33,744 bases of DNA from Parvularculaceae bacterium. Its GTDB lineage: Bacteria; Pseudomonadota; Alphaproteobacteria; Caulobacterales; Parvularculaceae. The notes under the pieces were generated by a model. It was given only the letters and a program-made list of their open reading frames with translations, was not told the DNA's origin and did no database searches. This document shows positions 1,934 to 14,218 of this stretch, one piece after another. A program made the position numbers and the translations under genes. Every line of letters begins with the position of its first letter. The stretch's first letter is position 1. The DNA lies in the NCBI GenBank assembly GCA_021776465.1, contig JAJFFU010000031.1, positions 1 to 33,744 of the forward strand. The letters are read 5' to 3'.

Positions 1934-4273
1934 ATGAAAAAAAGGCGGTATTGGACAGGCGCAAAGCGCGCGCCGGCGCAGGACAAGTTTTTTATCGACG
2001 CCCTGGATCCTGATTTGTGGACGCGCGGCGATGGAACGGACTGGGACGCCTGTTGGCATACAGGCATGCCTGTGCGCGGCGTTTATCGGAAAATGAAGCC
2101 GGGCCAATGGATCAATCATATTCCGGGCAATCATGCGCTGACGGTAAAATCCCTCCTTTATCAGTCGCTCGATGCAGCGCGCCGCCGGGCGCCCGCGGCG
2201 CTTAAGGATCGATATGAGTTTTTTCCAGACAGCTATTTGATGCCGGACGATTATCACGCGCTTCAACGCGAAGCGTTCGATCACCCGCAAAAACGCTGGA
2301 TCGTCAAACCGAAAAGCCTGTCGCGAGGCCGCGGCATCGAGGTCATCGCCGATGCGGGCGCAGCGCCGGCTGATGAAAAAATGCTGGTCCAGAAATATCT
2401 GAACGAACCACATTTGTTCGACGGGCGAAAATATGTCCTGCGGTGTTATCTCCTTATAACATCTGTCGAGCCGTTGCGGGTTTATCTGTACAAGGAAGGC
2501 TTTGCAAAACTGGCGTCAGAGCCATACCGCGACGGCGATTTCGACAATCTCTATGCGCACCTCACAAACCCCGATGTGAATGCTCTTAACGATTCGGTCG
2601 ATACGGCGGTGGAATTTCACAGCTTTGCCGATTACCGCAAATGGCTCACGAAAAATGGCGGCGACGCAGGTGCGATGTTCAGCGCTATTCGCGATATGGG
2701 CGCCATCACGGCCATCGCAGCGCGAGAGCATATGCGTGAGCGCCTTGCCAAAACCGGCGCATGGGCGCGCGGGTGTTGCGAGTTGATCGGCATGGACTGC
2801 ATGGTCGACGCCGATCTCAAGCCGTGGCTATTGGAATGCAACCTCAGCCCATCACTCGATGTCTGCGCGGAACCGGACGCCGGCGGCGTCATGGAAGAAA
2901 ATATCAAGCGCGCAGTCGTTACCGATCTTGTCGCCATGTCGGGCCTGAATGACCGCGCGAGGCGGGATGTTACCCCAAACGATATAGCTGCGATGATTGC
3001 CGCCAGCGAGCGTGAAGGCGACCGCGCCGGCGGTTTTGAACGCATTTATCCAGACGATGACGCCCGTGAATTTTTCCCTTTCTTTCCGGCGCCGCGCCAT
3101 GCCGACATCGCGCTCGCGGAAGCGATGAACGAGGGCGTCACGGACGATTATTGCCTAAAAACCAATGCCGCGGGCGAGTACGCCTTTGACGACGAACTCG
3201 TCTTGCACGGTGGAGAAAAAAATCAGCTGATGTCACCGCCAACCGCCGGCGCGTATATATGGTTGCGCGCGGGCGCCGGCGATCTTCCAAACGATATCGC
3301 CCGCGATCTCACCAATTTCTCCGACGCCCCGGGCATGGGCAAAGAACAAGCGCTCAAAACCGTGTGGGACACCCTCGCCGACTGGGGCGCGGCGGGCTTG
3401 CTGTCGCCCGCCGGCGAAGCGCCAGCAACGGAAGACAAACACTCGCCGCCAACACCGTCAGCATGGGTCGGAGAACATTCAGTTTATTTGGAAGGCGTGC
3501 TCTACCGTATTCGTGTTGCGACGCCGGAGATTGCAAACCGCCTGGAACCTGTCCTTGCCCCACTCGCCGCGGCGACCGACAGGAAAAGTGACACAGAAGT
3601 TTCCGTGCATACTGATCGCGCCGGCTATGCCATCGCCGTCGGATCTCGGCTGGTGCGCAGCAATTTACGCCTTGCCGAAGTCGCCGATGCGCTTTGCATG
3701 GTCCTGAGTGACGATGCAGTGGGGCGGGGCGATGGCGATGCGCCGCTCCTGTCTGCAAGCTTGTGGCGTATTGGCGATAAAACGGCGCTCATCGCATCGT
3801 CTCAAAAATCGCGCTGGGATTGCCTCGGCGTTGCTTGTCTTGAAGGAACTTCCGCAACATTGATTTCCGGCGCGTGCCGTCTTGGCGGATTGCCCGGCAG
3901 GGCGCTCCCGTTACCACTGCCAGCGAGGATCAAGGCGGAAGACACCGGAAACCCGGCGCCCTTCGTCAGTCAGTGGGCAAATGAAAACCGTGGCGCACTT
4001 ATCGCTTTAGAAAATACGCCTGCCGAGGAGTGCTCTGTGGACGTTGTAATAACGCCCATGTTTCAGGCGTCGGTGGAAGAGCCTGTGATAACCCGGCTCA
4101 TTGGACGCCCCGCGTTTTTGTCCTTGGCGTCGATGATTGCAGACCGCGCATTGTCCGCAACGGCGGCGGCGCGCATGGCGCATTGGCCGGGCGCAATTTC
4201 CTGCAGTGAAATTAAATTCGGCGACCGGCATACCGGTGCGCGCGCCATGGTCGAGACCATATCGGCGCTATAA
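1934..4273 (+). CDS. TTLL-like ATP-grasp ligase fused to PqqD-like and degenerate HprK-like domains
   Basis: A 779-residue protein with three regions. Residues about 110-310 match eukaryotic tubulin-tyrosine-ligase-like enzymes: WIVKPKSLSRGRGIEVI (122-138), VQKYL (152), RKYVLRCYLLIT (165-176), HLTN (209), and GMDCMVDADLKPWLLECN ending at Asn303. The expected metal ligands Asp288, Glu301 and Asn303 are present, so the ligase looks active. Residues about 406-490 resemble PqqD, a peptide-binding fold. Residues about 512-680 resemble HprK-related kinases, including LPLPLPARIK, but the P-loop position reads ALIASSQKSRWDC (about 618-630), without GxxGxGKS, so it should not bind ATP in the usual way. 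I infer ATP-dependent ligation of an amino acid to a peptide or protein held by the other two domains; the substrate is unknown. A TTG at 1895 would add 13 residues. The gene is divergent from trmB and convergent with the acidic lipoprotein gene. Confidence 0.85.
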   Translation: MKKRRYWTGAKRAPAQDKFFIDALDPDLWTRGDGTDWDACWHTGMPVRGVYRKMKPGQWINHIPGNHALTVKSLLYQSLDAARRRAPAALKDRYEFFPDSYLMPDDYHALQREAFDHPQKRWIVKPKSLSRGRGIEVIADAGAAPADEKMLVQKYLNEPHLFDGRKYVLRCYLLITSVEPLRVYLYKEGFAKLASEPYRDGDFDNLYAHLTNPDVNALNDSVDTAVEFHSFADYRKWLTKNGGDAGAMFSAIRDMGAITAIAAREHMRERLAKTGAWARGCCELIGMDCMVDADLKPWLLECNLSPSLDVCAEPDAGGVMEENIKRAVVTDLVAMSGLNDRARRDVTPNDIAAMIAASEREGDRAGGFERIYPDDDAREFFPFFPAPRHADIALAEAMNEGVTDDYCLKTNAAGEYAFDDELVLHGGEKNQLMSPPTAGAYIWLRAGAGDLPNDIARDLTNFSDAPGMGKEQALKTVWDTLADWGAAGLLSPAGEAPATEDKHSPPTPSAWVGEHSVYLEGVLYRIRVATPEIANRLEPVLAPLAAATDRKSDTEVSVHTDRAGYAIAVGSRLVRSNLRLAEVADALCMVLSDDAVGRGDGDAPLLSASLWRIGDKTALIASSQKSRWDCLGVACLEGTSATLISGACRLGGLPGRALPLPLPARIKAEDTGNPAPFVSQWANENRGALIALENTPAEECSVDVVITPMFQASVEEPVITRLIGRPAFLSLASMIADRALSATAAARMAHWPGAISCSEIKFGDRHTGARAMVETISAL

Positions 4274-4335: not shown

Positions 4336-4680
4336 TCAGCCGCCGCCTTCAACGGCTTCTTCGGCGTCATCAGCTGCTTCTTCAACAGCTTCCTCAACGT
4401 CTTCTGCGGCTTCCTCAGCAGCTTCTGCGCCTTCTTCGTAGGCCTCTTCTACTGCTTCGGCCGTTGCTTCAGCAGCTTCCGCCGCTTCTTCAGCCGCTTC
4501 CTCAACATAGTCGCCAGTCGCTTCGGCCGCTTCTTCGACTTCTTCAACAACCGATTCAGCAGCATCCTCATTGTCAGCTTGCGAGCAGCCGGCCAGCAAA
4601 AGCGCCGCAGGCGCGCCGACAATCAGCGCACGGCTTAAACGCGCCAACATTTTTTCACGCTCGTTTTTCAAAATCGTCAT
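4336..4680 (-). CDS. Glu/Ala-rich acidic lipoprotein
   Basis: A short lipoprotein of unknown function. With the start at ATG 4680 it has 114 residues: a basic N-terminus, a hydrophobic stretch, then LLLAGC with the lipidated Cys at residue 32. The next residues SQADN contain no Asp at +2, so outer-membrane sorting is plausible. The last 77 residues contain about 29 Glu and many Ala, no Lys or Arg, in irregular EEA/EEV blocks that would form a long acidic helix, ending in EGGG. ATG codons at 4698 and 4650 are alternatives; no candidate has a strong Shine-Dalgarno, and 4650 still leaves a good signal peptide. It ends tail to tail with the TTLL fusion gene. Similar Ala/Glu-rich lipoproteins occur elsewhere and have no assigned role that I know of. 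Confidence 0.78.
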   Translation of the reverse strand: MTILKNEREKMLARLSRALIVGAPAALLLAGCSQADNEDAAESVVEEVEEAAEATGDYVEEAAEEAAEAAEATAEAVEEAYEEGAEAAEEAAEDVEEAVEEAADDAEEAVEGGG

Positions 4681-13111: not shown

Positions 13112-14218
13112 CTACTCAGCTGCAACGACAGCAGCGCCTTCGGCCGCTACGCCTTTGACGTAGTCCTCGCGCGCCTTGCGGTTCATTTCGTCAAACTCCT
13201 CCGCACGCTGATCATCAATCGCCGTCAGATCATCATAATCAACATCGGCAAAACCGATGACGCCCATTTCGGTGTAAGCGCCTTTTACCTTGTCAGACCA
13301 CAAGCCGATATCGCGCACGATTGGCACAATGCGCTGGAAAAGCGTTTGCTGAAAATGCTGCTGAAAACCGGATTCCTTTTGCGCAGAGATAAAATCGTCC
13401 GCCGGCAAACCGAGATGTTCGTAAAGTTCGCGCGCCTCAAACCGGTCGCGCATCAAATAACACGCCTCGATCAGGAACTCTTCGCGCTCGTTGCGTTCAG
13501 CTTCCGTCAGTTCCGGATAATAATCACGCAACGTAACGCGCCCAAAGGAAACATGCCGGGACTCATCCTCCATGACAAAAGCGTTGACCTGTTGGGCCAG
13601 CGGGTTCTTTGCGATCTCGCGAATATTGTTAAACGCCGCCAGCGCAAGACCTTCGATCACAACCTGCATAGCAAGGTAAGTCATGTCCCAACGGGAATCG
13701 CGCAGCGCTTGATCAACAAGCGTCTGAAGCGGTTTCGTCATCGGATAGGCGACATCGAACCCTTCAAGGAATTTTTTATAGGCTTCCACATGACGGGCTT
13801 CGTCCATCACTTGTGTCGATGCATAGAACTTGGCGTCGAGGTCCGGCACTTGCTGCACGATTTTCGCCGCACAAATGAGCGCGGCCTGTTCGCCCTGCAT
13901 GAATTGCGAAATAATCCACGACTGCATGTGCCGGCGCAGCTCGACCTTTTCCTTGTTGCTCATCTTCGCCCAATAGGGCGTGTGAAACGGACCAGACAAT
14001 TCGTCCGGGATCTGCATCGGATTTTCAGTGTCGAGTTCCAACGACCAGTCGATGCGCTCTAGCGCATCCCACTGCATGTCTTTGCCCTTCTGATACAGAT
14101 GCATCATCTGCTTGCGGCCGTCGTCGTAATCCCAGTCAAACGACGCCTCAAAGCCTTGCGGCACGGTCCAGACCGGATCGATATCGGGGATCGGATAAAG
14201 GTCGCGTAAGGAAGCCAT
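13112..14218 (-). CDS. Ferritin-like diiron oxygenase/oxidase-type protein
   Basis: A 368-residue protein of the ferritin-like / ribonucleotide-reductase R2-like superfamily. A full set of diiron ligands can be read: Glu110 (QGEQAAL), Glu140 and His143 (DEARHVE), Glu189 (VVIEGLAL), Glu219 and His222 (EDESRHVSFG). This is the ExxH pattern of oxygen-activating diiron enzymes such as AurF-type N-oxygenases and fatty acyl desaturases. The length and last 70 residues do not tell me the substrate. There is no signal peptide, so it is cytoplasmic. A Shine-Dalgarno (AGGAG) supports ATG 14218. The promoter carries a tandem palindromic operator, so regulation by a small-molecule-responsive repressor, perhaps TetR type, is likely. 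It sits just downstream of fur but has its own promoter region. Confidence 0.85.
   Translation of the reverse strand: MASLRDLYPIPDIDPVWTVPQGFEASFDWDYDDGRKQMMHLYQKGKDMQWDALERIDWSLELDTENPMQIPDELSGPFHTPYWAKMSNKEKVELRRHMQSWIISQFMQGEQAALICAAKIVQQVPDLDAKFYASTQVMDEARHVEAYKKFLEGFDVAYPMTKPLQTLVDQALRDSRWDMTYLAMQVVIEGLALAAFNNIREIAKNPLAQQVNAFVMEDESRHVSFGRVTLRDYYPELTEAERNEREEFLIEACYLMRDRFEARELYEHLGLPADDFISAQKESGFQQHFQQTLFQRIVPIVRDIGLWSDKVKGAYTEMGVIGFADVDYDDLTAIDDQRAEEFDEMNRKAREDYVKGVAAEGAAVVAAE

Follow-up and report, generated by a model that had tools for sequence, protein, structure and literature searches.

The stretch of DNA analyzed here, hereafter the window, comprises 33,744 nucleotides of a contig from a Parvularculaceae bacterium (JAJFFU010000031.1, positions 1 to 33,744). 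Its forward strand carries an open frame at positions 1934 to 4273 that encodes a protein of 779 residues with a Pfam TTL match and full-length homologues. Three parts are recognized in this fusion protein, all on the forward strand: a region of the tubulin tyrosine ligase-like (TTLL) family, of the tubulin polyglutamylase-type ATP-grasp ligases (residues 1–384; 1934 to 3085), a domain that resembles PqqD and the recognition elements (RRE) of ribosomally synthesized and post-translationally modified peptides (RiPPs) (residues 406–492; 3149 to 3409), and a degenerate domain similar to HprK-related kinases (residues 511–778; 3464 to 4267). An earlier note, made from the letters of this DNA, had placed the frame correctly from the ATG at 1934 to the stop at 4273; an alternative TTG start 39 bases upstream would yield 792 residues. 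A second gene, on the reverse strand at 4336 to 4680, is convergent with the fusion gene, the two stops being 62 bp apart, and encodes a Glu-rich protein of 114 residues, the partner and proposed substrate. Taken together, the TTLL-type enzyme of this marine bacterium, similar in build to those that modify the Glu-rich tails of tubulin in animals, and the exported, leader-tagged Glu-repeat proteins point to an undescribed bacterial protein-modification system.

The N-terminal region of the fusion protein matches the Pfam TTL model with E=3.2e-57 and 194.4 bits, against a curated cut-off of 20.1; NCBIfam gave no match to the protein. In a structural comparison of the predicted model with 1000 chains, the best 50 were all TTL or TTLL folds; as the ligase part occupies the list, this comparison is uninformative on the PqqD- and HprK-like parts. 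Asp288, Glu301 and Asn303, to which the earlier note had drawn attention, do lie at these positions and are invariant in the 36 aligned homologues, as are Lys125, Gln153, Lys166 and Arg170. We take the first three to be metal ligands from what is known of the family, and the protein displays the TTLL fold with the ligands of an ATP-grasp enzyme. The nearest solved relatives by sequence are the glutamylases TTLL6 (E=2.6e-40), TTLL7 (6.3e-35) and TTLL11 (5.6e-22), followed by TTL (2.2e-13) and LOC100158544 (PDB code 5vlq; 1.5e-12), the last of which is presumably the glycylase TTLL3.

Arg131 (2324 to 2326, forward strand) was placed by alignment to wild-type and engineered TTLL6 and by column counts. 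It occupies the position of TTLL6 Gln180, and the homologues carry Arg (15/36) or Lys (21/36) there. Gln180 is the primary determinant of elongase selectivity according to the section consulted of PMC12366701. The engineered TTLL6 chain has Arg at this position, the wild type Gln and TTLL7 Met in our alignment. The basic residue hints at a branching activity, and is only suggestive in this respect.

The C-terminal half begins with the PqqD-like domain. In the predicted model it displays strands 413–418, 421–426 and 431–433, with a further short strand at 408–410, and then three helices that end at residue 486. Three strands followed in order by three helices are the definition of an RRE in the part seen of PMC12710340, and residues 406–492 combine this arrangement with profile homology to PqqD (hhalign E=1.4e-12 to the stand-alone PqqD-HprK proteins below). 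Weak Pfam matches in homologues complete the evidence that the PqqD-like segment proposed in the earlier note is real: three scanned homologues matched Pfam PqqD with E-values of 1.7e-3, 8.9e-5 and 2.5e-4 (19.1, 23.2 and 21.7 bits; cut-off 23.4), and the curated cut-off was reached by none of the four fusion members scanned.

Stand-alone relatives of the C-terminal half were recovered with a profile of the first fusion alignment, which was searched against 398 genomes of the phylum and gave full fusions together with short matches in stand-alone proteins. Four of the latter (loci L042, L044, L045 and L053) are PqqD-HprK proteins of 372–384 residues with an intact P-loop, and in L043 (1492–2379 and 2712–3575) an HprK-like protein neighbours a gene whose product looks like a radical SAM enzyme. 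The frame after the PqqD-HprK gene of L053 reads like a nucleotidyltransferase. TIGR04352 (HprK-related kinase A) matches the proteins of L042 (E=1.8e-19), L053 (1.2e-18) and L043 (9.2e-12), and Pfam PqqD those of L042 (1.9e-3) and L053 (3.4e-4), in every case below the cut-off. When the C-terminal halves of 36 fusions were aligned to these five by profile-profile comparison (hhalign), the probability was 99.0 and E=3.3e-18 over 315 columns that extend across both domains. Aligned by part, the PqqD portion was significant as given above and the HprK portion reached E=1.2e-6, or 2.7e-8 with L043. The homology of the last domain to HprK-related kinases is thereby established, as the earlier note had proposed, although its end at residue 680 was set too early, since the profile match extends to about residue 778.

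The P-loop of these kinases is lost in the fusion, as the earlier note had also recognized. The stretch ALIASSQKSRWDC (residues 618–630; 3785 to 3823, forward strand) aligns opposite GQPGAGKST of the stand-alone PqqD-HprK proteins in the profile alignment, and GxxxxGK[ST] was found in none of the 36 aligned homologues and in none of 17 further frames, 16 of which cover the HprK part. Because the alignment runs end to end, each part is significant and GxxxxGK[ST] is absent, both C-terminal domains are real, at a level far beyond chance, and the half looks like one two-domain unit that has lost its kinase site rather than two separate acquisitions, a point absent from the earlier note. It could be argued that the domain still phosphorylates the leader or the partner through a different mode of nucleotide binding; LppK, whose gene accompanies that of a discrete RRE, is an HprK-like kinase and phosphorylates a serine of a RiPP precursor, as described in the pages seen of PMC13381572. 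A Walker A motif is, however, lacking in all 36 homologues and in the 16 further frames that cover this part, and the stretch that replaces the P-loop is poorly conserved, with Trp628-Asp629 retained in 13/36, which renders a surviving kinase scarcely credible. Hence the C-terminal half is classed neither as an active HprK kinase nor as a PqqD domain at curated threshold, its relationship to both being apparent at the level of profiles. The HprK-like part may instead bind peptide.

Four families, with 12, 2, 21 and 18 genomes, share the fusion, which makes 53 genomes in all. The accidental joining of unlinked domains, which the earlier note had considered as a way for its reading to fail, is rejected on this conservation across families. 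In the family of the window, 12/62 genomes carry it, and in a sample of the class, 2 of 289 besides its own genome, with a partial match in G160. A sample of the phylum gave 3/398, own genome included. Two families of another class of the same phylum, which we take to be Gammaproteobacteria, contribute 22/131 (family of G712; one copy truncated, in G730, and one with a stop, in G746) and 18/121 (family of G470; one copy split). A 5' fragment occurs in G029 (contig C28). Such a patchy distribution would suit an accessory trait. Of the 398 phylum genomes, 48 gave a match to the TTL model at E<=0.001. Three of these (G000, G470 and G712) have the fusion, G650 has the match in a protein whose N-terminal part appears by eye to be glycosyltransferase-like, and the other 44 are short partial matches that were not read. 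In L062 (1444–3585) a TTL match (E=8.5e-13) follows an N-terminal part that reads like a glycosyltransferase, and this protein is distinct from the fusion system.

The partner protein consists of an N-terminal leader, MTILKNEREKMLARLSRALIVGAPAALLLAGCSQ (4579 to 4680, reverse strand), which contains a lipobox-like LAGC, and a Glu/Ala-rich tail (4336 to 4578, reverse strand) delimited by composition. The leader is supported by alignments A4 and A5 and by the held-out tests below. Partners share the N-terminal pattern (K/R)xxLLxxL(S/T)(R/K)xLxxxxP in A4. Among the 19 rows of this alignment, judged by eye, 10 end in a lipobox-like motif such as LAGC and most of the others in a signal-peptidase-I-like site, so that the conserved leader apparently sits inside a Sec or lipoprotein signal peptide. 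Some antisense frames that a greedy gene call placed beside the fusion (L022, L027, L028, L032 and L033) were rejected as shadows of the repeat gene. PADLOC gave a weak ZorA match for the partner (E=3.9e-4), which falls on the acidic tail.

After residue 41, the window partner contains 28 Glu, no Lys, one Ser and two Thr. This composition bears on a graspetide-like alternative, in which the ATP-grasp domain would join the side chains of Glu with Lys, Ser or Thr of the same protein into lactam or lactone cross-links. The paradigm for graspetides, in the portion available of the survey PMC8939145, is an ATP-grasp ligase that forms such linkages in peptides with a leader, and most tails, that of the window included, still hold Ser or Thr as possible acceptors. 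Against this, Lys, Ser and Thr are all missing from the L024 tail beyond residue 40, and tails of this kind argue against cross-linking; 10 of the 15 alphaproteobacterial partners are free of Lys after residue 41. Moreover, the domain is a TTLL by sequence and fold, and the words TTL and tubulin are absent from the graspetide survey just cited. A graspetide-like chemistry is consequently very unlikely.

The link between enzyme and partner is close. A partner lies beside the fusion gene in 54/54 loci with an intact, split or stop-interrupted fusion (37/37 loci whose frames were read at length and 17/17 further loci), in convergent, divergent or same-strand arrangement. In the first 15 loci it was seen in 14 when the neighbours were read, and the fifteenth was found in another frame. 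In each of the 37 loci the leader-tagged Glu-repeat gene is at most 554 bp from the fusion gene. The A4 leader model, which itself contains 19 of the genes that it found, gave 50 hits among the 13,057 frames of these loci, all with a Glu repeat (49 by a rule of 9 Glu in 30 residues and one by eye). Conversely, 49 of the 58 Glu-rich frames bear the leader. The RRE-bearing modifying enzyme and a leader-bearing, precursor-like gene thus adjoin in every one of the 54 loci, in the manner of RiPP pathways. The earlier note had overlooked this partner; its single-protein enzyme may be correct as far as the catalyst goes, but the whole system comprises at least two genes.

We further examined this link with a leader model built from 13 rows, all of the window's own family, so that the other families were held out. 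Applied to 8,725 frames in 25 loci of the three other families, it recovered the partner in 24, and the best hit without a repeat had E=0.07. The single miss is L178 of G730, where the ligase is truncated to a frame of 285 residues and no partner was found in 19 kb around it; intact fusion and tagged repeat protein have apparently been lost together. The same model found the partner in all 17 further loci of the G470 family, for which about 1.5 kb of flank was read. Genome-wide, at E<=0.01, it gave hits in 41/41 genomes with an intact or interrupted fusion, 0/38 fusion-less genomes and 0/1 with the truncated gene, in a sample of 80 genomes picked from the fusion-search lists of the families and the class. 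Fusion-bearing genomes also gave four weak leader hits in long frames (G834:C8, G806:C1, G746:C6 and G759:C22), which were left unread. Across the 398 phylum genomes, leader hits at E<1e-14 were confined to the three fusion genomes; as these were part of that leader model, the informative result is the absence elsewhere. Weaker hits (E 1.6e-4 and above, in 21 genomes) were set aside: those read, in 17 of these genomes, are free of a Glu repeat, several of them looking by eye like YebC or the signal peptides of Pal lipoproteins, and 4 were not read. At the level of sequence, the counts document both the linkage of the two genes and the specificity of the leader.

The repeat proteins might nevertheless be mere neighbours, for example acidic envelope lipoproteins, with the enzyme modifying something else. 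In the genus of the window, fusion and partner lie in a conserved stretch by metK and trmB-like genes and their proximity is possibly inherited synteny. This explanation is highly improbable given the 54/54 loci of four families with differing surroundings and three arrangements, as well as the genome-wide match of 41/41 against 0/38. In addition, G038 has two diverged fusion copies (L021 and L031), each beside its own leader-repeat partner. Other genes that recur near the fusion in the G712 and G470 families (DinB-like, sigma factor, TetR-like and rhodanese-like, labelled by eye) are not counted as parts of the system because they were not seen beside alphaproteobacterial fusions.

Many genomes contain a second tagged repeat protein, which carries cytochrome c. 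In L029 and L030 the partner is divergent from the fusion gene and has a C-terminal monohaem cytochrome c domain; in the G712 and G470 families a small partner lies downstream on the same strand, often with a cytochrome-linked one near. In the forms of L030 and L058, the match to the Pfam SoxA/TsdA cytochrome model exceeds the cut-off. Fifteen genome-wide leader hits lay outside the stretches read before, and all 15 combine leader and Glu repeat. Eight are at 9–26 kb from the ligase gene, six at about 2 kb and one on another contig. The haem motif CxxCH and a conserved C[MIL][VI]AP are present in 14 of these 15 proteins, the exception (G776, 26 kb away) having the repeat only. As an observation apart, leader-tagged Glu-repeat monohaem cytochromes c with a CMVAP-like Cys motif were noted at L057:6595–7239, L058:3496–4200, L199–L204 and L206–L213; those scanned have a SoxA/TsdA-type domain, and seven of those fetched are 9–19 kb from the ligase gene.

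A model built from four cytochrome-linked partners detected 14/16 fusion-bearing and 0/14 fusion-less genomes, or 10/12 when its four source genomes were removed, each of these hits falling on the partner gene. In G032 and G045, the two that it missed, a partner is present by reading. A few additional hits lie on other parts, for instance only on the cytochrome domain. The window partner was itself recovered by this model of other genomes with E=3.3e-4.

The position of the repeat is of use for the kind of modification. It reaches the C-terminus in the small partners, as would suit a ligase that extends the C-terminus instead of modifying internal Glu side chains, or one that adds glycine, tyrosine or another amino acid. 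The TTLL family includes tyrosine ligases and glycylases, and TTLL11 and TTLL6 can lengthen the main chain, as stated in the passages seen of PMC12340829 and PMC12366701. In the cytochrome-linked partners, by contrast, the repeat is internal, and its decoration must therefore be on side chains and not by C-terminal addition. Polyglutamylases are, furthermore, the nearest solved relatives by many orders of magnitude in E-value, which leaves another donor or a C-terminal extension unlikely.

Weighing this evidence, we estimate a probability of roughly 0.7 that the fusion gene encodes a leader-guided protein glutamylase. On sequence grounds the enzyme is filed as a member of the TTLL family and the putative pathway as RiPP-like. 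We infer binding, ligation, donor and export, as well as the order of the steps, as follows. The RRE and dead HprK half would capture the leader of the partner in the cytosol, and the TTLL half would use ATP to activate Glu side-chain carboxylates of the repeat, which would then be linked to a free amino acid, glutamate being the likeliest, through its amino group. Export would follow ligation, and maturation by signal peptidase I or II would take place outside the cytoplasm. The result would be a polyanionic protein or lipoprotein that has been exported and in some cases tethers cytochrome c; that it serves to bind ions or to anchor an electron carrier is speculation. This proposal of leader binding, repeat glutamylation and export leans, among others, on the MNIO systems, in which the enzyme pair seems, from preliminary results, to include the signal peptide in what it recognizes, according to the sections seen of PMC12452194. 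In eukaryotes, the Glu-Gly repeats of RPGR are glutamylated by a TTLL, TTLL5, as reported in the part consulted of PMC13052805. The earlier proposal of a three-part, peptide-modifying enzyme with a lost P-loop and an HprK-derived module is supported.

Several points weigh against this interpretation. The window protein itself has no Pfam PqqD match at E<=1. The basic residue at position 131 can be read as a hint at most, because TTLL7, likewise a glutamylase, carries Met there instead of Arg, and because wild-type TTLL6 (Gln) and the engineered enzyme (Arg) were both solved with an initiation analogue. The compared genomes are related, and the separation of 41/41 from 0/38 does not represent 79 independent events. 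Finally, the EAEGE repeats of other partners are more regular than the window tail, which weakly matches Pfam Apolipoprotein (22 bits, cut-off 90; E=1.2e-4). From this irregularity and the weak resemblance to a helical lipoprotein, the partner could be a structural lipoprotein in the genus of the window; with 16.6 bits against 43, it falls below the cut-off of the NCBIfam Ala-zipper lipoprotein model in a test for the Lpp/OprI type.

A comparison of the candidate glutamylase with known systems reveals both likenesses and differences. It shares with the eukaryotic polyglutamylases (TTLL6, TTLL7, and TTLL5 on RPGR) the ATP-grasp fold, the active-site residues and low-complexity, Glu-rich acceptors. 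By contrast, it is bacterial, its added part is RRE/HprK-like rather than a microtubule- or cofactor-binding domain, and its partners have signal peptides. As in PqqD and other RREs, strands precede three helices in a part that is joined to a modifying enzyme with a leader-bearing, precursor-like gene adjacent, whereas the sequence lies below the Pfam cut-off and the partners, as far as is known, are repeat proteins instead of small natural products. The C-terminal half aligns end to end with the stand-alone, TIGR04352-like PqqD-HprK proteins, but differs from these, and from the HprK kinases of the paeninodin and Lpp type, in the lost P-loop and the junction to a ligase. RimK lies outside the TTL family and modifies the C-terminus, with no known RRE or leader. 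It is nonetheless, in the portion seen of PMC4431377, a bacterial ATP-grasp ligase that adds Glu to a protein, ribosomal protein S6, as the fusion would do to its partner. Precursors with Sec signal peptides are found in the bufferins (MNIO; PMC12452194) and precursors with lipoprotein signal peptides in lipoprotein-RiPP hybrids (MNIO; PMC12636315); in the parts consulted, these systems differ in that they are iron oxidases with mostly Cys-based chemistry, and recognition in the latter is via a C-terminal motif. Among the papers listed by searches of open-access full texts, none described a bacterial TTLL with an RRE or these repeat proteins.

A broader proposal, which we hold to be slightly favoured, is a bacterial TTLL polyglutamyl code, in which a leader-addressed TTLL places side-chain glutamate on exported Glu-repeat proteins genome-wide, c-type cytochromes included. 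If so, TTLL-type glutamylation, studied as a code of the eukaryotic cytoskeleton and cilium, would also operate in bacteria, in a compact system of one enzyme and its leader-tagged partners that would offer a simple TTLL model for reconstitution. The partners would constitute a new class of proteins modified under the guidance of a leader, and in the envelope they would form a polyanionic layer that tethers electron carriers. The RRE would acquire a new use in steering protein glutamylation, a kinase would have been recycled as a binding module, and the leader could perhaps serve as a tag-directed tool to write glutamate branches on chosen proteins.

Other contexts for the fusion were considered and rejected. 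Cargo of a phage or plasmid found no backing, as PHROGs gave no match to the window fusion and a plasmid tblastn none for two members, and a defence system was dismissed after a PADLOC scan of two fusion proteins found no match in either. G855, G860 and G872 gave weak profile hits that were also discarded; the first (L197) reads as a GGDEF/EAL protein and is a chance match, and the other two were not read.

Elsewhere in the window, the reverse strand at 3 to 1067 encodes a glucuronyl-esterase-like protein cut by the contig end (Pfam GCE_fung, E=8.9e-22), and several loci of the genus have relatives of it close to the fusion. An AurF-like N-oxygenase (Pfam E=3.9e-17) is encoded on the reverse strand at 13112 to 14218.

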